Source: an uncultured bacterium
GTDB lineage: Bacteria > Chloroflexota > Anaerolineae > J036 > Brachytrichaceae
NCBI GenBank assembly: GCA_903921365.1
Contig: CAIXPS010000140.1
Coordinates: 1 to 42,596, forward strand
Length of the DNA stretch: 42,596 bases
Direction: 5' to 3'
Shown here: piece by piece, positions 9,272-36,561 of the stretch
Layout of the letters: the number at the start of each line of letters is the position of its first letter
How positions within the stretch are numbered: the stretch's first letter is position 1
Translations under genes and position numbers: made by a program
The notes under the pieces: model-generated
What the model was told of the DNA's origin: nothing
What the model saw: the letters and a program-made list of their open reading frames with translations, nothing else
Databases searched by the model: none

Positions 9272-10042
9272 ATGACATTCGAAAATAACACTCAGTCACC
9301 GCTGCCCGCTGATGAATCAGCCATTCGGCAAACCCTGTTGAACAAGCGTGTTTCTGTGCTGGACAAGGGGTGGATCGAGTTACAAGACTTGATGGGCAAC
9401 GATCTTGCAATTGTCAACGCCGCGCGCGCATCCTTCCTCGGCGAAAGCAAGGGCAGCGACAAGGACAAGAAGTTGCTCTTCTACATGATGGAACACCATC
9501 ACACCAGCCCTTTCGAGCAAGTCGAGTTCAGGTTTCGTGTGCGAGCGCCTGTCGTTACCTGGTGGCAGTGGGTGCGTCATCGCACATGGTCGTTTAACGC
9601 ACAATCCGGCCGCTACGTGGCCTTTGACGAGGAAGACTTCTACGTTCCGTCAGCCTGGCGAAAACAGTCGTCTATAAACAAACAGGCAAGCCTCGGCGAA
9701 CTCTCTCCAGAGGAAGGTCAACCCTTCTCCGAGGCGCTCGACGAGCACTACAAGCGCAGTTATCAGTTGTATCAACAGGCGTTACAGGCCGGTATTGCCC
9801 GTGAGCAGGCCAGGATATTTCTGCCCGGCTTTTCAGTCTATTACACGTGGGTTTGCAAGGTTGACGCGCACAACCTGATGCATTTTCTTCAGTTGCGCAT
9901 GGCGCCAGAAGCCCAGTATGAGATTCGCGTTTATGCGCAGGCGATCTATCAACAGTTTTTCAAGCCAGCGCTGCCATGGACTGCCGAAGCCTTCGAGAAG
10001 TTCATGCTTATCGACAGCAAGGAGAGCAAAGACAGTAAATGA
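9272..10042 (+). CDS. thyX: FAD-dependent thymidylate synthase ThyX
   Basis: It makes dTMP from dUMP using methylene-tetrahydrofolate, FAD and NADPH. The diagnostic ThyX motif RHRxxxxxxxS is present as RHRTWSFNAQS at 102-112, followed by GRY. EHHHTSPFEQ at about 75-84 is the usual flavin/dUMP region, and ARIFLPGFSVYYTW the later conserved segment. At 256 residues it is near normal length. An in-frame ATG at 9197 would add 25 residues overlapping the permease gene. I prefer 9272 because the preceding residues are unlike ThyX and a -10 box sits directly upstream. No thyA is seen in the window. It converges with the Fe-S assembly gene across a strong hairpin. Confidence 0.96.
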   Translation: MTFENNTQSPLPADESAIRQTLLNKRVSVLDKGWIELQDLMGNDLAIVNAARASFLGESKGSDKDKKLLFYMMEHHHTSPFEQVEFRFRVRAPVVTWWQWVRHRTWSFNAQSGRYVAFDEEDFYVPSAWRKQSSINKQASLGELSPEEGQPFSEALDEHYKRSYQLYQQALQAGIAREQARIFLPGFSVYYTWVCKVDAHNLMHFLQLRMAPEAQYEIRVYAQAIYQQFFKPALPWTAEAFEKFMLIDSKESKDSK

Positions 10043-10051
10043 TCTCGTATT

Positions 10052-10094
10052 CCAGCGTGGGAGTTGCGTGGGAATCCGCGCAACCCCACGCTGG
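10052..10094. terminator. Bidirectional terminator hairpin between convergent genes
   Basis: CCAGCGTGGG-A-GTTGCG pairs with CGCAACCCCACGCTGG, a 16-bp G/C-rich stem with one bulged base. It lies 10 bases after the thyX stop and 10 bases after the end of the opposing gene. There is no long T-tract, so intrinsic termination is not certain. Confidence 0.7.
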
Positions 10095-10103
10095 GTCACC
10101 GTC

Positions 10104-10487
10104 TCAGTAGTACAGGCCCCAATTGGCCGCTGCCTGGTCTTCCATCATGGAGGGGTCCCACATTTCCAGTCCCATCGTGACACGCGCCACCCGCTGAGTC
10201 GCCTCCTGCACCTTCTGACGAATCTGTTCAATAAGCGCCGGCCCGTATGGGCAGAATGGCGTTGTCAGGATCATCGTGACATCCACCTTGTCTGGTTCCC
10301 AATCAAACTTACGGATCAGACCCAGTTCAATGACACTCATGCCAAGTTCAGGGTCAAAAACCTCGCGCAAGCCCTCACGCGCCTTATTTTCCAGATCCAT
10401 CAGGTTCATATCAGTCTGAGGCTCCGAAAGTCCAGTGTTCAGCGCCTTCTGATCAAGGGCTATCCCATTCGTATTCTTTTCTGCCAT
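10104..10487 (-). CDS. Metal-sulfur cluster assembly factor (MIP18/DUF59, SufT-like)
   Basis: The 127-residue cytosolic protein has FDPELGMSVIELGLI at about 53-67 and TTPFCPYGPAL at about 90-100, containing the conserved cysteine of the MIP18/DUF59 fold. Proteins of this family help deliver Fe-S clusters. The C-terminus ends in a Trp/Tyr-containing tail, as in stand-alone SufT-type proteins. A clear GGAGG Shine-Dalgarno sequence precedes the ATG at 10487. No suf genes are adjacent, so the link to the SUF system comes from the family only. Confidence 0.9.
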   Translation of the reverse strand: MAEKNTNGIALDQKALNTGLSEPQTDMNLMDLENKAREGLREVFDPELGMSVIELGLIRKFDWEPDKVDVTMILTTPFCPYGPALIEQIRQKVQEATQRVARVTMGLEMWDPSMMEDQAAANWGLYY

Positions 10488-10841
10488 TTGGCCTCCAATA
10501 CCCTACTTCGCTCTACCTTTACTTTGTTTATCTGTTGTTTCATTCAGCAACAGATACCTATAACCTGTTTTTGATGACGGCCATAAGCTTAAACAGGCCA
10601 TATAGACTGAATTATACTGTGCAGGCTGAGTCCAAAGGCGGCTGGAGAGCGAACGAGTTCTGGTCATATTGACAATTGATTACCTTTCCGTTAAAGTTAA
10701 CGTAAATTCTAATCCGGTTTCGCGCATTTTCATTCTCCGTATATTCAATGCGAATGTCAGTTTTACTTTCAGTTCGGGGAATACAACCATATTTGTTATG
10801 GCTTCCATCTCCCCTGATAGGAGCATGATCGTAGGGACTAC
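10488..10841. other. Intergenic region with hairpin and gene remnant
   Basis: This 354-base gap holds the leader of the Fe-S assembly gene, an inverted repeat at 10529-10556 and an open frame without a start codon (10612-10851, listed separately). It is clearly richer in A and T than the sequence to its left. No tRNA or other RNA gene was seen. Confidence 0.6.
10529..10556. repeat. Inverted repeat TATCTGTTG/CAACAGATA upstream of the Fe-S assembly gene
   Basis: Two perfect 9-base arms are separated by 10 bases, about 40 bases before the ATG at 10487. This could be a regulator-binding site or a leader hairpin; which regulator is unknown. Confidence 0.45.
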
Positions 10842-10851
10842 ATGGTAAAAG
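10612..10851 (-). pseudogene. Possible 3' remnant of an unknown gene (no start codon)
   Basis: A minus-strand frame of 79 sense codons is open between stops but contains no ATG, GTG or TTG. Its translation looks protein-like, with alternating polar and hydrophobic residues, for example RIRIYVNFNGKVI and a C-terminus LQPPLDSACTV. I do not recognise the family. The 5' end runs into the start of the following plus-strand gene, so the original N-terminus has been lost or replaced. It may instead be chance open sequence; I favour a remnant, weakly. Confidence 0.35.
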
Positions 10852-11258
10852 CTATTGAGTACAGGTCGATCATCCTGCTACTTTTCATTATTGCGGCGCC
10901 ATTTTCTAGCGTTTCGTGCATAAGTCGATCCGCTGTCCCCGAATTTGACTACAACCTGATACAACAAGCTTTCAAACAAGAAGATATATCCCCACTCATA
11001 TTGCAAAAACGGGCTAACAGCATTACTTTCACCGTAGCATTTAAGGGAGGCGGTAAAGATTACGATAAAGCACGATTGGAAAGCTATGGCAATACTGAAC
11101 GAATCGTTTTATATAACACGAGTGGCGCACTGGAGAATATGTGGGTTATTTTTCGTATGACTGGTTCAATCTTTGGTCTAGAACCAGGCCATTACAATCT
11201 CCAGATTAAAGACTCCAACGACACGTTAATTGCCGAAAATACATTCACTCTACCTTAG
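10842..11258 (+). CDS. Small putative lipoprotein of unknown function
   Basis: The 138-residue protein has a basic start and a hydrophobic core ending SSVSC, so Cys26 may be lipidated, though the lipobox is imperfect. The mature part has predicted beta-strands (ITFTVAFKGGG, RIVLYNTSG) and ends GHYNLQIKDSNDTLIAENTF, resembling a small Ig-like or carbohydrate-binding fold. I do not recognise the family. Codon use is rich in A/T like the C25 peptidase gene that follows 291 bases later. The shared composition suggests they arrived together. Confidence 0.6.
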   Translation: MVKAIEYRSIILLLFIIAAPFSSVSCISRSAVPEFDYNLIQQAFKQEDISPLILQKRANSITFTVAFKGGGKDYDKARLESYGNTERIVLYNTSGALENMWVIFRMTGSIFGLEPGHYNLQIKDSNDTLIAENTFTLP

Positions 11259-11549
11259 CCACATGATCTTTTGTAGAGGGATAGGATATATGAGATAGCG
11301 AGATCGCCTTATTGCAAACTGGTCAACACATCACCTGCCTAAACCGAACAGATGAGATATAAGCACATTCATTTCTCCGTTTACCCAGCTGACGCTATAT
11401 GAGTACGACAAAGGAGTGTCACTGAATCAAAGAAAGAAACAGACAACTCAAAAGAAACGTGCAGTATCTGGTCCTTAACCCAATGTAGTGAAAACACATG
11501 CGAATAAGCCCATATGACAAGATTGTGGACTTATTCAGGAGGTCTCAAA
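11259..11549. other. Gap before the C25 peptidase gene, no gene seen
   Basis: This A/T-rich 291-base gap has many stops on both strands. The only clear signal is AGGAGG at about 11537-11542, seven bases before the GTG of the next gene. Confidence 0.5.
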
Positions 11550-14500
11550 GTGGAAGCAAGGGTTTTCGTAAAAGCGTCGATTCCGATAATGATCATCGTG
11601 AGCCTAATGGCATCCCCTTCAGCCGCACAAACGCCATTTGTCAAGCAAACTCCCCCCGCAATAACTACGTCATCAGACATCAGGAATGAAAAAACAATTA
11701 CTTACGCTGCGAGCCCACGTAAACAACTGAGTACAACTGCGGTAACAACAGAAGATATTTTGCTTATCCAAACCAGCGATCCGTGGGAAAGTAGCGATCA
11801 TTATGTTGGGAACAACTGGTACGACGGTATTACAGCCGATACCTTGGTACTGGATTCACTTGGTTATACCTACCGGATAGCGACGTGGGACAACATTAAT
11901 CAAGGGACCGTCAACATCTTTGCTTATCCTGTCATTCTCATCGTAAACGATCAGGTTCAGGCATTCTACGATAGTTATGCGGCGCATGTCACCGATTTTG
12001 AAAATTACGTTTCATCTGGACATACGCTTGTCTTTTTCGCCGCGAGTGATGGTTGGGCCGGAGGGAGACTCAATGCCAATTTACCGGGTGGGGTTCATGT
12101 CGTGACACCCTGGTATGAATACAACAACTACATTGTAGATTCTAGCCATCCTATTGTTAGCGGACAATTGTCTGGTGGCGATATCCTGATGAATGCCGAT
12201 CTTTACAGTTATTATTGCAGCCATGGCTACTTTACGTCTCTACCCGCCAATGCTACGACGATTCTAGAGGAGTCACACAACTATCCTACCCTTGTTGAGT
12301 ATAGACTTGGGAATGGGCGTGTGATCGCATCAACACAGACATGGGAGCACAACTGGGCATACCACACTGGATCTGATGGTTATGGGACATTTGCTCGTAG
12401 GGCCTTAGATGATGTTTTTCTCTATGCTTTTTCTGGCGGTACGGTGCCATCCGATGTAAAGCTGGATCTTCGGATAGAAGACGCACCGGCATGGATAAGT
12501 GTGAATAAAAGTCGTAGTAGTTATATGGATGTGGTTGCGCGCGTCAGTGGGGGTTCTTCATATGGATTAAATGTAGTGTTGCAAATACCCTCTGATAAAT
12601 TCGGTGTGCCAGTAAAGACATTTACACGTAATCGCCCAGGTGACCCTAACTTCGGACAAAACAACCAGTATATTAATTTGGGTACTGGTCAGTATCAGAT
12701 ATCAACCACATTACAAGCACTCGGAGGAAGATACTATAAGGAGTTGGTCTGGCGATTCCTTATACCCAGCGGGGTTACCCCGGAGCGTGACGTAACATTA
12801 TCAGCACGTGTTTCAGTTCCCGGATATACAGTGCAAACCTCCAATGGCACCGTCAAGGTTAATATTATCGATAACGCCAATAGTCTAATTGTAACTAATC
12901 GTCGATTACTATTCAGCAAATATCAAGCTAACCCAGACCAAAATGATGTTTCTTCTTTGCTGGAGACTGTTTATGAACAGGCTTGGGTTTTCGACGGCGA
13001 AGTGTTTTATGTAGACTTATATGACAATGGCGCACGAGATTGGGCCCAGAACGTTGATTACTCGAACGAGACAGCGGCCAATACAATTGCTACCGCAATA
13101 CATGGGCTTATGATCAGTTGGTACAACCGCCTGACTAAGCATCCAAGCATATTTGAAACAATCAAACCCCAATATCTTCTTCTTGTCGGTGGTGATGAAA
13201 TAATACCTTTCTATAGAGCAGATGATCGTCCTTATGGAGATCTTGAATTCAATGATGTTCACATAGATGACAGCGATCCGGTGGGGAAGGTGCCACAGCA
13301 ACATTATTTGCTGTCCGATAACATCTATTCATCCATCAGTACTGATAAGAGTCAGTGGGAGGAAGGTAAACTTAACTTATCCACTGGAAGAATAATCGGA
13401 TACTCAGCGGCATCGATGCGACAATTCATCGAGAATGCGACATTTGCTACTCCGGCTCTCTCTCAGGCAGTTGTAGCATCCAGGTCTTCAATACATAAAC
13501 TCGATACCGTTATAGATCGCTTGAATTCACGGCATGTCGCGATTTATAGTCAAAGTAACCCTGATCTTACCGAGAATGACACTTGGACCAGAGCGCAATG
13601 GATTACAGCCCTCCAACAACCCTACCAGGTGCTTGCATATCAAGGACATGGGGCTTATGACGGGTGGTATGGCACTAGCAACTGGACAAGTGGCGTTACA
13701 GCATCAGACCAACCGTCTGGATTGATTAACGAAAACCACCCACTTTTCGCCGTTGAAGCTTGCAACTTTGCCATCCCAACGGACTTACATGGGGCAGCTT
13801 GGTTACCTGATCCCAATGACAACATATCCTGGAAACTTATCTCATTAGGGGCCGGTGGGATTCTGGGATCGATGGGGATTGATACGACCTCTCCGAAGAT
13901 GGCATATGGCACAAGGCTACATAATGATTATTTCAGGTACCTGATTGACAAGAGCTCCTGGTTCGGACTGATACCAGCCAGTGATTATAGCGAAGACTTC
14001 GGGACAGCTCTGCTTAAGGCCAAGCAGAACTATCCGGGAAATGGATTCCCTTGGGGCTATGATTCTACTGATAAGAAGACGTTAATGGAGTATGTATATT
14101 ACGGTCTGCCTTGGTCCTTTATGCCAACGCCCGACAACAATGCCACAGACTTGCTGGCAGCCTCTAAAACACCTTCTGGGTATAACATCTCAGAAGCTGT
14201 CCCGACTAACAACAAGTCAGCATCATACAACGTCGTAATCACGTCGACCATCTCTTCCTATCAATTTACACCCATCACTGGATTTGAGATGCTAGAAATA
14301 CCCGGCGCTGACACTTTGTACTCCTCTGGCAAACCCGTATTGCCCCTGCAAAATACTACGATCAACCTGCCCTCTGGAGCAACTGTATTCGGTGTAAATC
14401 TGATTACCTCACACTCGATACCATTGGGTCAGCATAATATCCCGGCGGCATATCCTTCAACATCATATAACAGTACCAACGGTTATACTAGCACAATGGG

Positions 14501-15872
14501 CGTGACAGGAGTTTTCCCGTCAGTTCTCTTTACTTATACTGTGAGAACAATAGAGGACCATTCAGAATTAAGAATCATTATCGCCCCGGCAACATTTAAT
14601 GTGGGCACGCATGATGTGGCACTCTTTGACTCAATCACGCTGCAAGCCAGTTACACGGCCACGATGCCGGTAGTACTTGATAATATGTCAACAGATCAGC
14701 CGGAGTATCAAGTCGGTGAGACGATTACACCCCGCGCAAATATCAAGAACGTCGGTTCGAATCCCATGTCACTGGTATCGAGAGTTCGCGTATTCGATGC
14801 TGGGGCATCATCAGTGTTGACAATGACCAGCGCTGCATACGTTGTCGACGCTGGAGGAGACTTCAGGTTTCAGTTGCCATTTACGCCCACACTGGCTCCC
14901 GGGAATTACCAACTGTCCCTGTCAGTAGAACAATCGGGTATGACATTAGTGTCAGAGGTCACATCCTTTAGAGTTCTAGCGGGTAGGCTCTCATGGTTTA
15001 ATGCGCCACAGTCAGTCGTATACGGTGAATATGGAACGTTCAATCTGTCGTTTACAAATTACCTCGCTGTGCCCGTGACGGCGACGGCCAAGGTTCACAT
15101 ATACGATGCCTCTGGCACCGAGTTGGCTGATCTTCTGCAACGCACGTTCGTTGTCAGTCCTCATGAAATCGGAGCGACTTCTTGGTCATGGGAACCAACC
15201 GGACTAACATCTGGCACGTATACTGTGCGAGCGGCTGTTAACGTTGGTGACGACACATACACGAGCAATTCGGTTGAAATGCAAGTGAAAGAACCCGCCA
15301 AAGTTTACCTACCCATTATGCTTCTCAACCATAGCAATGCAATACCATATCAGTGGCTGGATGCCACCACTGGTGGGACAATCGTTGCACAAAGTGACGA
15401 TACATATGAATACCTGAATTTGCCATTTACGTTCAACTTCTATGGTAATGCTTATTCTGGAGTCTATGTCTCATCGAATGGGTTTGTCAGCTTTGGTGCT
15501 GGTTATTCAGCTTTCAGCAATACTTGTATTCCCAGTGTAAGCACACCCAATAATGCCATCTATGGATTGTGGGAAGACTTAGTGCCTACAGGTGGCGCCA
15601 ATGGCAATGTATATGTGAAACAGGTTGACACCAATACATTTGTCATCGAATGGTATCAAGTGAAGCACTATGGAACTTCTGATTATGAGACATTCGAGAT
15701 TGTGATCCACAACGACAGTTCAATTACATTGCAGTATCAAACGGTTGTCAATGTAAGTTCAACAACTGTAGGTGTTGAAAATGACTCCGGCACATTAGCC
15801 AAACAATACTATTGCAATGGCAATGGAACACCGGTGGTAAATCAGCAGGTAATTCAATACACAACGCCATAG
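11550..15872 (+). CDS. Secreted gingipain-like cysteine peptidase (C25) with multiple beta domains
   Basis: I start at GTG 11550 because AGGAGG lies seven bases upstream and the product then begins with a clean signal peptide ending near SPSAAQ; an in-frame ATG at 11514 adds 12 unlikely residues. Of 1440 residues, about 60-300 look like a GATase-1/ThuA-like domain. A beta region follows. The peptidase domain contains QYLLLVGGDEIIPFYRADD, then YQGHG with catalytic His about 700 and AVEACNF with catalytic Cys about 738, the His-Cys arrangement of C25. Two CARDB/Ig-like domains, KVYLPIMLLNH near 1252 and a C-terminal nidogen-like beta domain (FYGNAYSGVYVSSNGFVSFG) follow. There is no type IX sorting domain. 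It is probably an extracellular peptidase held at the surface. Codon use is richer in A/T than neighbouring genes. Confidence 0.88.
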   Translation: MEARVFVKASIPIMIIVSLMASPSAAQTPFVKQTPPAITTSSDIRNEKTITYAASPRKQLSTTAVTTEDILLIQTSDPWESSDHYVGNNWYDGITADTLVLDSLGYTYRIATWDNINQGTVNIFAYPVILIVNDQVQAFYDSYAAHVTDFENYVSSGHTLVFFAASDGWAGGRLNANLPGGVHVVTPWYEYNNYIVDSSHPIVSGQLSGGDILMNADLYSYYCSHGYFTSLPANATTILEESHNYPTLVEYRLGNGRVIASTQTWEHNWAYHTGSDGYGTFARRALDDVFLYAFSGGTVPSDVKLDLRIEDAPAWISVNKSRSSYMDVVARVSGGSSYGLNVVLQIPSDKFGVPVKTFTRNRPGDPNFGQNNQYINLGTGQYQISTTLQALGGRYYKELVWRFLIPSGVTPERDVTLSARVSVPGYTVQTSNGTVKVNIIDNANSLIVTNRRLLFSKYQANPDQNDVSSLLETVYEQAWVFDGEVFYVDLYDNGARDWAQNVDYSNETAANTIATAIHGLMISWYNRLTKHPSIFETIKPQYLLLVGGDEIIPFYRADDRPYGDLEFNDVHIDDSDPVGKVPQQHYLLSDNIYSSISTDKSQWEEGKLNLSTGRIIGYSAASMRQFIENATFATPALSQAVVASRSSIHKLDTVIDRLNSRHVAIYSQSNPDLTENDTWTRAQWITALQQPYQVLAYQGHGAYDGWYGTSNWTSGVTASDQPSGLINENHPLFAVEACNFAIPTDLHGAAWLPDPNDNISWKLISLGAGGILGSMGIDTTSPKMAYGTRLHNDYFRYLIDKSSWFGLIPASDYSEDFGTALLKAKQNYPGNGFPWGYDSTDKKTLMEYVYYGLPWSFMPTPDNNATDLLAASKTPSGYNISEAVPTNNKSASYNVVITSTISSYQFTPITGFEMLEIPGADTLYSSGKPVLPLQNTTINLPSGATVFGVNLITSHSIPLGQHNIPAAYPSTSYNSTNGYTSTMGVTGVFPSVLFTYTVRTIEDHSELRIIIAPATFNVGTHDVALFDSITLQASYTATMPVVLDNMSTDQPEYQVGETITPRANIKNVGSNPMSLVSRVRVFDAGASSVLTMTSAAYVVDAGGDFRFQLPFTPTLAPGNYQLSLSVEQSGMTLVSEVTSFRVLAGRLSWFNAPQSVVYGEYGTFNLSFTNYLAVPVTATAKVHIYDASGTELADLLQRTFVVSPHEIGATSWSWEPTGLTSGTYTVRAAVNVGDDTYTSNSVEMQVKEPAKVYLPIMLLNHSNAIPYQWLDATTGGTIVAQSDDTYEYLNLPFTFNFYGNAYSGVYVSSNGFVSFGAGYSAFSNTCIPSVSTPNNAIYGLWEDLVPTGGANGNVYVKQVDTNTFVIEWYQVKHYGTSDYETFEIVIHNDSSITLQYQTVVNVSSTTVGVENDSGTLAKQYYCNGNGTPVVNQQVIQYTTP

Positions 15873-15903
15873 AGCTAATTGTTTTACGTGTCGACTGACG
15901 ATT

Positions 15904-15944
15904 GGTTAAGCTTGTCGAGTGTTCATAGTTCGGCAAGCTTAACC
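15904..15944. terminator. Hairpin after the C25 peptidase gene
   Basis: GGTTAAGCTTG pairs perfectly with CAAGCTTAACC and extends inward through one wobble to CGA/TCG. It begins 31 bases after the peptidase stop. No T-tract follows, so it may be an RNA-stabilising 3' stem rather than an intrinsic terminator. Confidence 0.55.
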
Positions 15945-16128
15945 GACCTATACTTCAAGAGTGAACTCATACGGGCAGGGCTTGTCCTTGCCATTGGGGT
16001 CCGCGCCTTCGGCGCATCTTCCCTTACTGACAGGTGTAACGATGGCATCGGCGGGTATTGCGAGCAACCGCTAGGCGCGTAATGTTCTCAGTTGGAGAAA
16101 CAGAGTGCAGTATTGGGTTATTGTGGTA

Positions 16129-16134
16129 TATAAT
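16129..16134 (+). promoter_or_regulatory. -10 element (TATAAT) for secDF
   Basis: TATAAT at 16129-16134 predicts a start near 16141 and a leader of about 31 bases before the secD ATG, with TTAGGAAA as possible ribosome-binding site. No good -35 at standard spacing. Confidence 0.5.
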
Positions 16135-16171
16135 GCCGCCGATATCGACTTTAGTTAGGAAATTTCCATAA

Positions 16172-17581
16172 ATGCGCGAACGCAACCTCATAACATTAGT
16201 CATTATTATCGTAATTACGCTTCTATCGGTGGTTATTATTGCCCCCATAGCCAAGCCACAGTTCTTGTTAAACCTTATCTTCTGGCAGGACGCGCGTTCA
16301 CGCGACCTGCAGATCAAACAAGGTCTTGACTTGAAGGGTGGCATTCAGATATTGATGTCCCCCGATGTCGGGGAAGGCACCACTGTTGTTTCAGGCACGC
16401 TTGAATCCGCTCGCGCAATCATCGAGAATCGCGTTAACGGCATCGGCGTCAGCGAAGCATCTGTGCAGTTGCAGGGCAGTGACCGCATTCTGGTCGAACT
16501 TCCCGGCGTCACAGACAGACAACTCGCCATTGATATGGCTAAACGCACCGGACTACTCGAGTTCGTTGATGGCGGCACAAACTCACCGGCGACGAAACAG
16601 GTTATCTCTACTACCTACGCCATCCAGCAAACGCTGCTCTATCCCGTCACTGCTGCCGTGGGTAAGCCTATCATCAGTAACACTCAGACGATCTCCGGAG
16701 CCAGCCGCATTTACAATACAGCGTTTACCGGTGAAATTCTGCTCAGTAACAGTCGCGTCGACGCCCAAACCGGCCAGATTGTTGTGTTATTTTCGATCAA
16801 GCCATCTGCCCAGCAGTCCTTTCAGGAATTCACGTCCAGCCGTATTGGACAGCCGTTATGCATCGTTCTTGACTCTGTGGTGCTCTCATGTCCAGTGATC
16901 CGCAGTGTGCTGACTGAAGGCGGTCAAATCAGTGGAAACTTCACGAACGACGAAGCGCGCGATCTGGCGATTACTCTGAATTACGGGTCGCTGCCGATAC
17001 CGCTGAAGATCGAGACCGTTCGCGATGTGGGCGCAACACTGGGCACGGACTCTGTGCGCCGCAGTATTATTGCCGGTGTGATTGGCCTGGTTGTGCTGAT
17101 CATCTTTATGTTGCTGTACTACCGGCTGCCCGGTCTACTCTCGGCTGCGGCCCTGTTGTTCTTCGCAATTACAACGCTTGCGATCTACGTTCTGCTGCCC
17201 GTCACACTCACTCTGCCCGGTATAGCAGGCTTCCTGTTATCCATTGCGACCGCTGTGGACGCAAATATCTTGATCTTTGAGCGGTTTAAGGAAGAAATCC
17301 GCGCCGGTCGAACACTGCGCGGCGCAGTAGAAGCAGGTTTCCAACGCGCCTGGCCGTCAATTCGCGACTCCAACCTGAGCACGCTCATTACCTGCGTTGT
17401 TCTGTTCTTATTCGGAAATACCTTTGGCGCCAGCGCAGTAAAAGGTTTTGCTATTACCCTGATCCTGGGTATTCTCGTCAGCTTATTCTCGGCGATGGTG
17501 GTTACACGCACCTTGATGCGGTTGGTCTTCTCACAGCCATCAGAAGCGCTTGAACAGAACAAAACACTTTTGGGGGTATAA
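16172..17581 (+). CDS. secD: Protein translocase subunit SecD
   Basis: SecD works with SecF in the cytoplasmic membrane, using the proton gradient to help pull proteins out of SecYEG. The 469-residue protein has TM1 at about 7-25, GLDLKGGI at 51-58 (the conserved SecD motif), a P1 domain with ARAIIENRVNGIGVSEASVQ, and five C-terminal helices from about 292 on. The conserved ANILIFERFKEEI segment joins the last helices. Its length is typical of the shorter SecD form. secF starts eight bases after the stop. It lies right after a large secreted peptidase gene but is a housekeeping gene, so that adjacency is probably incidental. Confidence 0.97.
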   Translation: MRERNLITLVIIIVITLLSVVIIAPIAKPQFLLNLIFWQDARSRDLQIKQGLDLKGGIQILMSPDVGEGTTVVSGTLESARAIIENRVNGIGVSEASVQLQGSDRILVELPGVTDRQLAIDMAKRTGLLEFVDGGTNSPATKQVISTTYAIQQTLLYPVTAAVGKPIISNTQTISGASRIYNTAFTGEILLSNSRVDAQTGQIVVLFSIKPSAQQSFQEFTSSRIGQPLCIVLDSVVLSCPVIRSVLTEGGQISGNFTNDEARDLAITLNYGSLPIPLKIETVRDVGATLGTDSVRRSIIAGVIGLVVLIIFMLLYYRLPGLLSAAALLFFAITTLAIYVLLPVTLTLPGIAGFLLSIATAVDANILIFERFKEEIRAGRTLRGAVEAGFQRAWPSIRDSNLSTLITCVVLFLFGNTFGASAVKGFAITLILGILVSLFSAMVVTRTLMRLVFSQPSEALEQNKTLLGV

Positions 17582-34595: not shown

Positions 34596-34645
34596 AACGA
34601 GCCGGTCATGTCTGTGTCATGTGATGCAGATATGACCGGCTCGTT
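34596..34645. terminator. Hairpin terminator of the rhamnose operon
   Basis: AACGAGCCGGTCAT pairs perfectly with ATGACCGGCTCGTT (14 bp), extended inward by GTCTG/CAGAT, starting 11 bases after the rhaB stop. It is followed by TAGTGCTTTG rather than a T-run. Confidence 0.65.
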
Positions 34646-34648
34646 AGT

Positions 34649-34667
34649 GCTTTGAATCCTTTAGGAG
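34649..34667 (-). repeat. Copy 4 of the dispersed short repeat (inverted)
   Basis: GCTTTGAATCCTTTAGGA on the plus strand is the reverse complement of the TCCTAAAGGATTCAAAGC core found at rhaB, tilS and GT117. It follows the rhaB hairpin directly. Confidence 0.5.
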
Positions 34668-34711
34668 TGCATCGGATTTTGACTGGTCAATTAGGCCCGA
34701 TGATGATGTGA

Positions 34712-34918
34712 GCTAATGAACTTCTCCAAAAGACTCGGCCCTTATACCCCGTTTTAGGGTCAAACACCTGTGCCGACAACACGACTACCGATGTGAACCT
34801 AATCCTGTCCGAAGAAGCACAATCATTGGGTGTTCCTAAACGGAAGCGTAAACCAAAACGTCCTGAACCGGAAGAAGATGCTCTTGACAGGCACATAAAA
34901 TCCTCAACTTGTGACTGA
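34712..34918 (+). pseudogene. Possible remnant with basic/acidic tail
   Basis: A 68-codon frame without an ATG (one internal GTG at 34793) reads DVNLILSEEAQSLGVPKRKR and continues with a Lys/Arg then Glu/Asp-rich tail. It looks like the C-terminus of a lost protein, but I do not recognise the family and chance is possible. Confidence 0.25.
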
Positions 34919-34935
34919 TGGCTTTAGCCTTCTTT

Positions 34936-35064
34936 TCAGCGTAATCTCAGTACCTGGAAGCCATCAATACTCGCGCCTCCGCTGGACGTTAGTCCTACAC
35001 CGCCATTAGAAAATGAGTTGTCAGTAACAATACCTTCGCCAAAATCATGTACATGAAAAAGGGC
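34936..35064 (-). pseudogene. Remnant of a beta-sandwich (LamG/DUF1080-like) protein C-terminus
   Basis: Forty-two codons between stops, lacking a start codon, read SNGGVGLTSSGGASIDGFQV before TGA. A GxxGLxSxGxxxxxDxFxV ending is typical of concanavalin-like glycan-binding domains, and resembles the end of the lipoprotein encoded at 5256. The rest of the gene is gone. Confidence 0.35.
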
Positions 35065-35454
35065 TTATCGAGCAAAATTGTAGCTTCTCACAACTAAAAC
35101 TCACTCGATAAAACCCCGGACAGAAATAATAGCACTTTTAGGAACCATTGCGCCGCTCTTGAAGCTGGCGACTTTTCTCCAGATTAGTCAGGTCACCTTT
35201 GGAGTGCTGATCGTCAGTGTACGAATTACCATACCGCTATTGGCAAGGCGACTAAAACCTGTCATGTCACATGGCGGCAGGATAACGTTCAGTCATGGCT
35301 ACGAGAAAATACCGCATGATAGGGAATAAGAAGTGAATATCAGCGACTACACTGTCGCACACAATGTGCTGACGGCACACGACCGGGAAGGATGCCAGAG
35401 ACGTATCTGGCACCAGTAACATGAGCGGCGCCATGATCTCATTCAAAGACGTAT

Positions 35455-35868
35455 TCAAGGAGATCTATCAGGAAGCAAACCTGAATCACAAAGATTATGC
35501 CTAGCGATGTAGCGCACCCCCTCAATGTCCTTGAAGTGCTCATCTTGCGTCCGCAGGGTTGCGTCAAAATCGCGTGCAGTTGCCAATATCACGCTGTCTG
35601 CCATTGGCAACCCAAAGTCGGTTGAGACTTTTGCGGCGCGTTACGCCAGGGATGCGTCGAGTTCAATGACTTGCCCTGGCTGCATTTGTGCTACAGCTTT
35701 AAGCACATCATCCTCGCCGCGTTGCTGATAAACACGTTTGAAAACCTCATAGAGGCAAATGGCTGGAACGATGAGTTCCTTTGTGTTTTCGATGGCTGGC
35801 GCGAAGAAGTCCGCATTAGGTTCATCGGCAAAATACACCAACCAGCCCGATGAGTCTACGACATTCAT
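35455..35868 (-). pseudogene. VapC-like PIN-domain toxin, interrupted by an in-frame stop
   Basis: Read through, the frame gives 137 residues, a normal VapC length. PIN acidic residues are Asp5 (VVDSSGW), Glu41 (LYEVFKRV), Asp91 (MADSVILATA) and Asp109 (RTQDEHF). Codon 76 is TAA (plus-strand positions 35641-35643) with clear homology continuing on the other side in the same frame, so one base change would restore it. As it stands a 75-residue fragment is made lacking half of the active-site acids. The ATG overlaps the antitoxin stop by four bases. A recent inactivation or a sequencing error are both possible. Confidence 0.75.
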
Positions 35869-36071
35869 ATACGGTCAGCTTCGCGGTTGATAGTCGTGTC
35901 AATGCCTTTTAGAAATCCGCGCGCTTTTTTAGCGGGCAGGATGGGGATCAGTTCAATGCGATTCTCGTATAGCACGACTTGGACTTTTTGTCCGGGTTTG
36001 ATGCCTAATGAGCGCCTGACACGCAGTGGGATGATGACTTGATATTTGGGAGAAACGGTAACGACTTCCAT
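35865..36071 (-). CDS. AbrB/MazE-type antitoxin (VapB)
   Basis: The 68-residue protein has a SpoVT-AbrB swapped-hairpin DNA-binding domain: VVTVSPKYQVIIPLRVRRSLGIKPGQKV and then VVLYENRIELIPI. A short toxin-binding tail follows (KKARGFLKGIDT). Such antitoxins bind the operon promoter and neutralise the VapC RNase. AGGACA precedes the ATG at 36071. It overlaps the PIN gene by four bases, the usual type II arrangement. The toxin is broken, so the antitoxin may persist as a regulator or by chance. Confidence 0.85.
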   Translation of the reverse strand: MEVVTVSPKYQVIIPLRVRRSLGIKPGQKVQVVLYENRIELIPILPAKKARGFLKGIDTTINREADRI

Positions 36072-36561
36072 TGTGTCCTGCCTGTCCCTATCGATGCAGA
36101 AACGATAAGGCTGTTGCTATTCTACTTTGGAACCGGTTAAGCTTTCGATTGTATTACCACGCTATTTGAGCACTCCGAGGTCGCATTGATTGTAGCGCTC
36201 ACGCAGATGGTTAGGGGTCACTCTTTTATCAATTGGCGATCGCAGGTCAAGGCGCCAGCATTGCTCCATAAGGACATCCCAGGCAGACTATATCGCTTTT
36301 TTCTGAACCGGCGCCAGTACAAAGCGCCCATAGTTCATCGGAACTGATCAGATTCTGAATGCCTGAACCCATGAATACAAGCGCGAGCAATCTCGCGATG
36401 CGAGGGTGTCAAGCATTCTGACTGCTAATAGACAAAATGGCCGAGGTGTCTATTTTGCGCTATCATCTGGCCCTGTCTTTTCTAAGTGCACCCGATTTGT
36501 GACGCTTGCGACGATTGGGTGGGCTCTAAACTCAAGTCAAGACGAAAAAGCAGATAAAACA
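36072..36561. other. Gap between vapB and the SDR gene
   Basis: These 490 bases hold the vapB leader with a possible operator (CCTTATCG and CGATAGG near 36091-36112). They also hold a 35-codon minus-strand open frame at 36163-36270 with no recognisable similarity, and the inverted repeat at 36427-36454. No gene is supported. Confidence 0.5.
36427..36454. repeat. Inverted repeat AATAGACA/TGTCTATT upstream of the SDR gene
   Basis: Two perfect 8-base arms are separated by 12 bases and followed by TT, about 108 bases before the SDR ATG. It could be an operator or a hairpin. Confidence 0.35.

Follow-up and report, generated by a model that had tools for sequence, protein, structure and literature searches.

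The described systems closest to this locus are gingipains R and K of Porphyromonas gingivalis. A gingipain proper cleaves after Arg or Lys, carries an Ig-like domain after its catalytic domain, and is exported by the type IX pathway with a C-terminal signal. In estuary sediment, gingipain-like C25 peptidases made up 41–45% of the signal-peptide-bearing peptidase genes (PMC6752024). The relevant passages of that paper deal with the abundance and activity of sediment C25 peptidases, and not with the gene or the site described here. Literature searches for C25 or gingipain with Chloroflexi, and for C25 with Anaerolineae, returned nothing.

The window, meaning the whole stretch of DNA analysed, is a contig of 42,596 bp from an uncultured member of the Anaerolineae; the draft assembly, 96.9% complete, has 6.9 Mb in 603 contigs. 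Its features are collected in Table 1. Beyond the Fe-S gene, the GC profile of the window dropped from ~0.54 to 0.41–0.48, and it recovered inside secD. The island (10,628–16,100) has a GC content of 0.454, compared with 0.558 for the remaining window. In nine other stretches of the same genome, the minimum among 78 overlapping 5.4-kb segments was 0.524. Codon use pointed in the same direction. The small ORF had the 7th and the C25 gene the 8th lowest codon score among 207 ORFs of the genome, with the score derived from all other ORFs and the ORF set chosen automatically and containing false ORFs. Such codon use is not confined to the island: six of the 207 ORFs were odder than those of the island, one of them a doubtful ORF of the window. 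The abrupt change in base and codon use after the Fe-S gene, and its return at secD, were thus found as the sequence-only reading had described them, and the A/T-rich island is real. Its proposed limits (10,488–15,900) had to be moved, to ~10,627 and 16,105–16,125, based on homology to a genome of the same genus (G004).

Table 1 Positions of the island features and of the neighbouring genes in the window.
Feature	Position	Strand	Remarks
Fe-S cluster assembly protein gene (PF01883)	10104..10487	-	Left neighbour, resident, whole; Pfam 47.6 bits
Putative Fe-S promoter piece	10611..10626	-	16-base block with -10 box, identical in G004; last common block, left edge
"Gene fragment"	10615..10851	-	Open frame of 79 codons, no start codon; best read as chance
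Small ORF, 138 aa	10842..11258	+	Hydrophobic leader by eye; SVSC
Predicted exported C25 (gingipain-type) cysteine peptidase	11550..15872	+	PF01364; predicted GTG start; listed ORF begins at ATG 11514
Ig-like domain and C25 catalytic domain	12453..14168	+	AlphaFold2 model, 572 residues, pLDDT 86.7, pTM 0.91
C-terminal NIDO-like domain	15303..15869	+	NIDO 23.1 bits, cut-off 25; 57% to end of an M14 carboxypeptidase
15-bp inverted repeat downstream of the C25 gene	15904..15944	.	93% complementary, folds at -25 kcal/mol, without T run
Putative secD promoter and leader (TATAAT)	16125..16171	+	19-mer identical in G004; right edge
secD	16172..17581	+	Right neighbour, resident, whole; 83% to G004 over all 469 aa

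Composition also deviated elsewhere in the genome. Several ORFs in three loci (L132, L126 and L127) had codon use as odd as that of the island, with GC3 of 0.39–0.55, and are candidates for further acquired patches. In the window itself, a second AT-richer patch at 34,600–36,400 (GC ~0.48–0.50) had no long ORF. It carries a MazE-type antitoxin ORF (35,865–36,071, minus strand) and a 75-aa PIN-domain ORF with an early stop (35,641–35,868, minus strand), and looks like a decayed toxin-antitoxin pair. The contigs examined appear to form two GC groups, at roughly 0.50–0.58 and 0.59–0.62. The assembly, at 6.9 Mb, compares with 3.3–5.2 Mb for the four listed genomes of the same genus (75–92% complete), and the MAG may be a mix of two populations.

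The large island gene had been recognized as a C25 peptidase from the sequence alone, and this assignment held in profile, residues and fold. The trimmed C25 domain reached 48.4 bits with PF01364 (cut-off 23), and the protein reached 45.9 bits in a profile search of the genome; PF01364 was missed when the full 1,452 aa were scanned with Pfam. Residues H712 (QGHG) and C750 (EACN), numbered from ATG 11514, are conserved in ≥90% of the 21 sequences aligned. We take them to be the catalytic pair, as in gingipains. For the modelled part, a structure aligner placed gingipain R on top (Z 31.8, 314 residues, 2.8 Å), followed by gingipain K (Z 30.5) and then separase (Z 17.8). No gingipain was among the 50 matches listed by Foldseek for the same model, with the Ig-like part driving the top matches. 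The full C25 protein found nothing up to E 0.1 in a PDB sequence search, and a PDB profile search gave four weak matches, the best one to a caspase at E 0.3. The window protein therefore has in common with gingipains R and K the C25 profile, the His-Cys pair and the catalytic fold (Z 30.5–31.8), with a sequence identity of 14–17% over 311–319 residues. Unlike in gingipains, the part that was modelled has its Ig-like domain ahead of the catalytic one, and the N- and C-terminal domains are of other kinds. GTG 11,550 is preceded by AGGAGG at 11,537–11,542 (by eye) and is probably the start, rather than ATG 11,514. The hydrophobic stretch that follows it, also seen by eye, suggests a signal peptide, and the protein is probably exported. 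Its most likely role would be to cut extracellular protein for feeding.

The C25 protein is a mosaic, with N-terminal and C-terminal parts that recur on other types of protein. Residues 45–307 were 58% identical to the start of a 1,825-aa protein of another family. The scan of that protein listed CARDB, PKD and Big_1 domains and no C25, although the same type of scan had missed C25 in the window protein as well. In the C-terminal 190 aa, Pfam gave NIDO, below its cut-off, plus two weaker rows and nothing else. A 42% relative of this domain sits on a protein of G033 that is subtilase-like by eye, and the 57% relative at the end of the M14 carboxypeptidase is encoded in the same genome as the island. 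This own-genome relative, together with two further C25 genes in the genome, would fit a module copied or moved from elsewhere in the same genome. Such a move seems very improbable: apart from itself, the N-terminal and C25 part matched just one own-genome sequence, with 28% identity (two candidates scored), and the DNA of 10,488–11,514 and 15,870–16,171 matched only itself in a search in which short contigs were masked, where a copy could be missed.

The small ORF had been read as an orphan lipoprotein. It is an orphan in that it matched no Pfam or NCBIfam family (NCBIfam gave no match for the window proteins), whereas the lipoprotein label is unproven, because SVSC is not a standard lipobox. 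The ORF matched copper-binding lipoproteins of its own genome and kin at E 0.01–0.05, and hhalign against five of them gave a probability of 88.5% over 74 columns. These lipoproteins are presumably of the auracyanin type, for which we assume His, Cys, His and Met as the copper ligands. All five auracyanin-like relatives keep H84, C147, H152 and M156. The first His and the Cys are absent from the small ORF, which has Asn opposite H84 and no Cys after residue 26; the remaining ligand region lies outside the alignment. The apparent likeness is faint and serves as a lead only, and the fold model of the small ORF was poor (pLDDT 44).

A gene fragment without a start codon, which the sequence-only reading had placed at the left border, is better seen as a frame of chance length. 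The longest open frame within 10,488–10,842 has 76 codons. When this interval was resampled 1,000 times under a first-order Markov model, 216 of the resulting sequences had a frame open for at least 77 codons. In a search of 60 genomes for relatives, the best non-self match (E 0.023) covered 27 residues and had an internal stop. The stop of the frame at 10,612–10,614 lies inside the conserved -10 box of the putative Fe-S promoter, and its last codons also lie in resident promoter DNA.

The site was sought in 28 genomes of the family, including the genome of the window. The Fe-S gene was present in 26 of the 28 (own genome included), and both secD and the Fe-S gene were located in 21 others. 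Ten of these carry the two genes divergently on one contig; in another 10 the two lie on separate contigs, and in one (G021) they are 32.8 kb apart on one strand. Eight divergent gaps were 57–467 bp long (G004, G002, G020, G011, G016, G012, G019 and G010) and two were larger (1,772 bp in G022 and 3,296 bp in G023). Two further genomes of the same genus, G001 and G003, are incomplete, with neither flank gene seen, and G266, G274, G320 and G343 stand outside the gap count. The island genes were absent from the site in all 10 genomes readable on one contig. This comparison of the interval between the Fe-S gene and secD sought relatives with the same genes at the same place and with the same composition, and none was seen at these 10 sites. 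Both larger gaps belong to one genus (g7) and are filled with other genes: a mandelate-racemase-type gene (MR_MLE profiles) in G022 (L244), and a DDE transposase plus a shorter ORF resembling the G022 gene by eye in G023 (L243). The gap between the Fe-S gene and secD seems to tolerate insertions.

The edges of the island could be drawn closely by comparison with G004, in which the Fe-S gene and secD are divergent and 239 bp apart. The 16-base Fe-S block lies 127 bp from the Fe-S start in G004 and 124 bp in the window; the 19-base block with the secD -10 box lies upstream of secD by 46 bp and 47 bp, respectively. The spacing between the two blocks is 51 bp in G004 versus 5,498 bp in the window, and in BLASTN the match to G004 picked up again at 16,124. 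We called the -10 boxes promoters from their sequence and place. The island thus sits between the two putative promoters, and no resident gene is cut. The earlier suggestion that acquired DNA had replaced part of a resident gene was not upheld: the Fe-S gene and secD are both whole, and compared with G004 only ~51 bp of intergenic sequence between the promoters are missing.

The same edges bear on a possible assembly artefact, in which the assembler joined foreign DNA into the contig. A draft of 603 contigs that, at 6.9 Mb, is larger than its genus mates (3.3–5.2 Mb) and has two apparent GC groups makes such an error conceivable. An artefact would need two separate false joins, placed exactly between two conserved -10 boxes, and we regard it as very improbable.

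Within the island, the inverted repeat behind the C25 gene is perhaps a transcription stop. A search of the own genome found no second occurrence of it. Promoter- and terminator-like sites in 10,000–16,600 were about as numerous as in shuffled sequences, and Rfam gave no match above the gathering score for either the island or the window.

In named genomes, the C25 protein matched 55 loci, many of them in Chloroflexi MAGs. The closest relative found was the C25 gene of the Chloroflexi MAG NC_groundwater_1621_Pr3_B-0.1um_59_22 (locus L146), which stood alone at ~70% identity in the core; other loci matched over at least 500 residues had 22–34% (best segment). By BLASTP, L146 and the window protein shared 57.5% identity over 1,199 aa and were aligned up to residue 1,258. 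In blocks of 100 columns, identity was 66–74% in most of the catalytic part and 35–37% in the late Ig-like part. Beyond residue 1,258 the two proteins differ, with SLH (S-layer) repeats in L146 and the NIDO-like domain in the window protein. In a tree of 21 rows, the two formed a fully supported pair with a long stem; the branching that positions this pair was weak (60/35).

The two hosts are much less alike than their C25 genes, with 47% identity for secD and 45% for secF. The L146 gene has a GC content of 0.45, like the ~45% of the island, in a host with 0.60 in its secD region. Its left flank has 0.59–0.69 GC and its right flank 0.43–0.55 up to the end of the locus. The neighbours also differ from those in the window; a second SLH protein and an XRE/MmyB-type regulator are among them. 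The terminal part of one neighbouring gene is present twice, as a 134-bp direct repeat (90%) at L146:3641–3774 and 11980–12113, and the two copies bracket the C25 gene, the XRE/MmyB-type regulator and the SLH-repeat protein; the DNA after the second copy still has low GC.

Further relatives were scattered and more distant. Some match to the C25 query was found in 44 of 396 genomes sampled from the class, the best with 33% identity over the whole C25 part and up to 37% over pieces. In a phylum sample of 400 genomes, only the own genome passed 1e-10, and three of 101 genomes around that of L146 passed 1e-6, its own included. Archaeal relatives had 32–34% identity to the window protein. In viral contigs, no relative of either the C25 protein or the small ORF could be confirmed. 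Among plasmid and phage records, only the C-terminal domain was matched, in four plasmids and one phage with <40% identity. Across 24 related C25 loci (L146–L169), only L146 and L160 of Methanothrix had a GC content more than 0.08 lower than that of their flanks, so the C25 family as such is not marked by low GC.

The patchiness of C25-like genes, with matches in 44 of the 396 class genomes, makes losses likely. In an old-resident scenario, the C25 gene would be ancestral at the site and lost in the relatives, and its low GC would reflect the constraints of an exported, beta-rich protein. The other genes in the gap of the two g7 genomes are compatible with this. However, the C25 gene was found at none of the 10 readable family sites, most homologues follow the GC of their flanks, and the C-terminal domain has a GC of 0.59 on the own-genome M14 protein versus 0.42 in the island. 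We consider an old resident unlikely.

Acquisition by ordinary horizontal gene transfer, as the sequence-only reading had supposed, is in our view the best account, well supported and probable, because the site is empty of island genes in 10 of 10 readable genomes, the composition is foreign, and L146, a low-GC gene in a ~60% GC host, is far closer (57%) than the secD of the two hosts (47%). A ~5.5-kb piece of low-GC (~45%) DNA from another lineage would have been inserted between the divergent Fe-S and secD promoters, replacing ~50 bp and breaking no gene. The relatives plainly differ from the window at this site; the direction of the change and the foreign origin are what we infer. Since both -10 boxes were kept, the neighbouring genes could stay expressed. 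No donor was found in the samples of 396 class and 400 phylum genomes. Given a core difference of 30%, neither L146 nor the window gene appears to be the direct source of the other.

We also considered a self-moving element (IS, transposon, ICE or prophage) and rejected it, as the two main island ORFs matched no transposase, integrase or phage gene in Pfam or PHROGs and no tRNA was identified in the window. The remaining ORFs listed in the island overlap these two or are short. The island edges showed no convincing pair of terminal repeats or target-site duplications; GTGCAG occurs near both edges (by eye), and six bases can be chance. The DNA thus probably entered through recombination, with no self-moving element involved.

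That two low-GC copies occur in hosts of higher GC, each among unrelated neighbours, suggests that a low-GC source was drawn on twice. The low-GC C25 family could then be cargo among the Chloroflexota: coming from an unsequenced low-GC lineage, it would have entered hosts of higher GC independently, at unrelated sites, and its C-terminal domain would have changed on the way (SLH versus NIDO-like). We put this forward tentatively, at somewhat less than even chances, because only the left flank of L146 is GC-rich.

Both the type of event and the protein family were already known, and the general knowledge of C25 peptidases and gene transfer is unchanged. What the locus offers is a well-bounded case: relatives lack the insert, its edges between the two putative promoters are known to within tens of bases, and another low-GC copy exists in a distant host. 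The gap between two divergent housekeeping genes carries different cargo in different genera. The island is an example of how uncultured Chloroflexota may acquire the capacity to degrade proteins one gene at a time.
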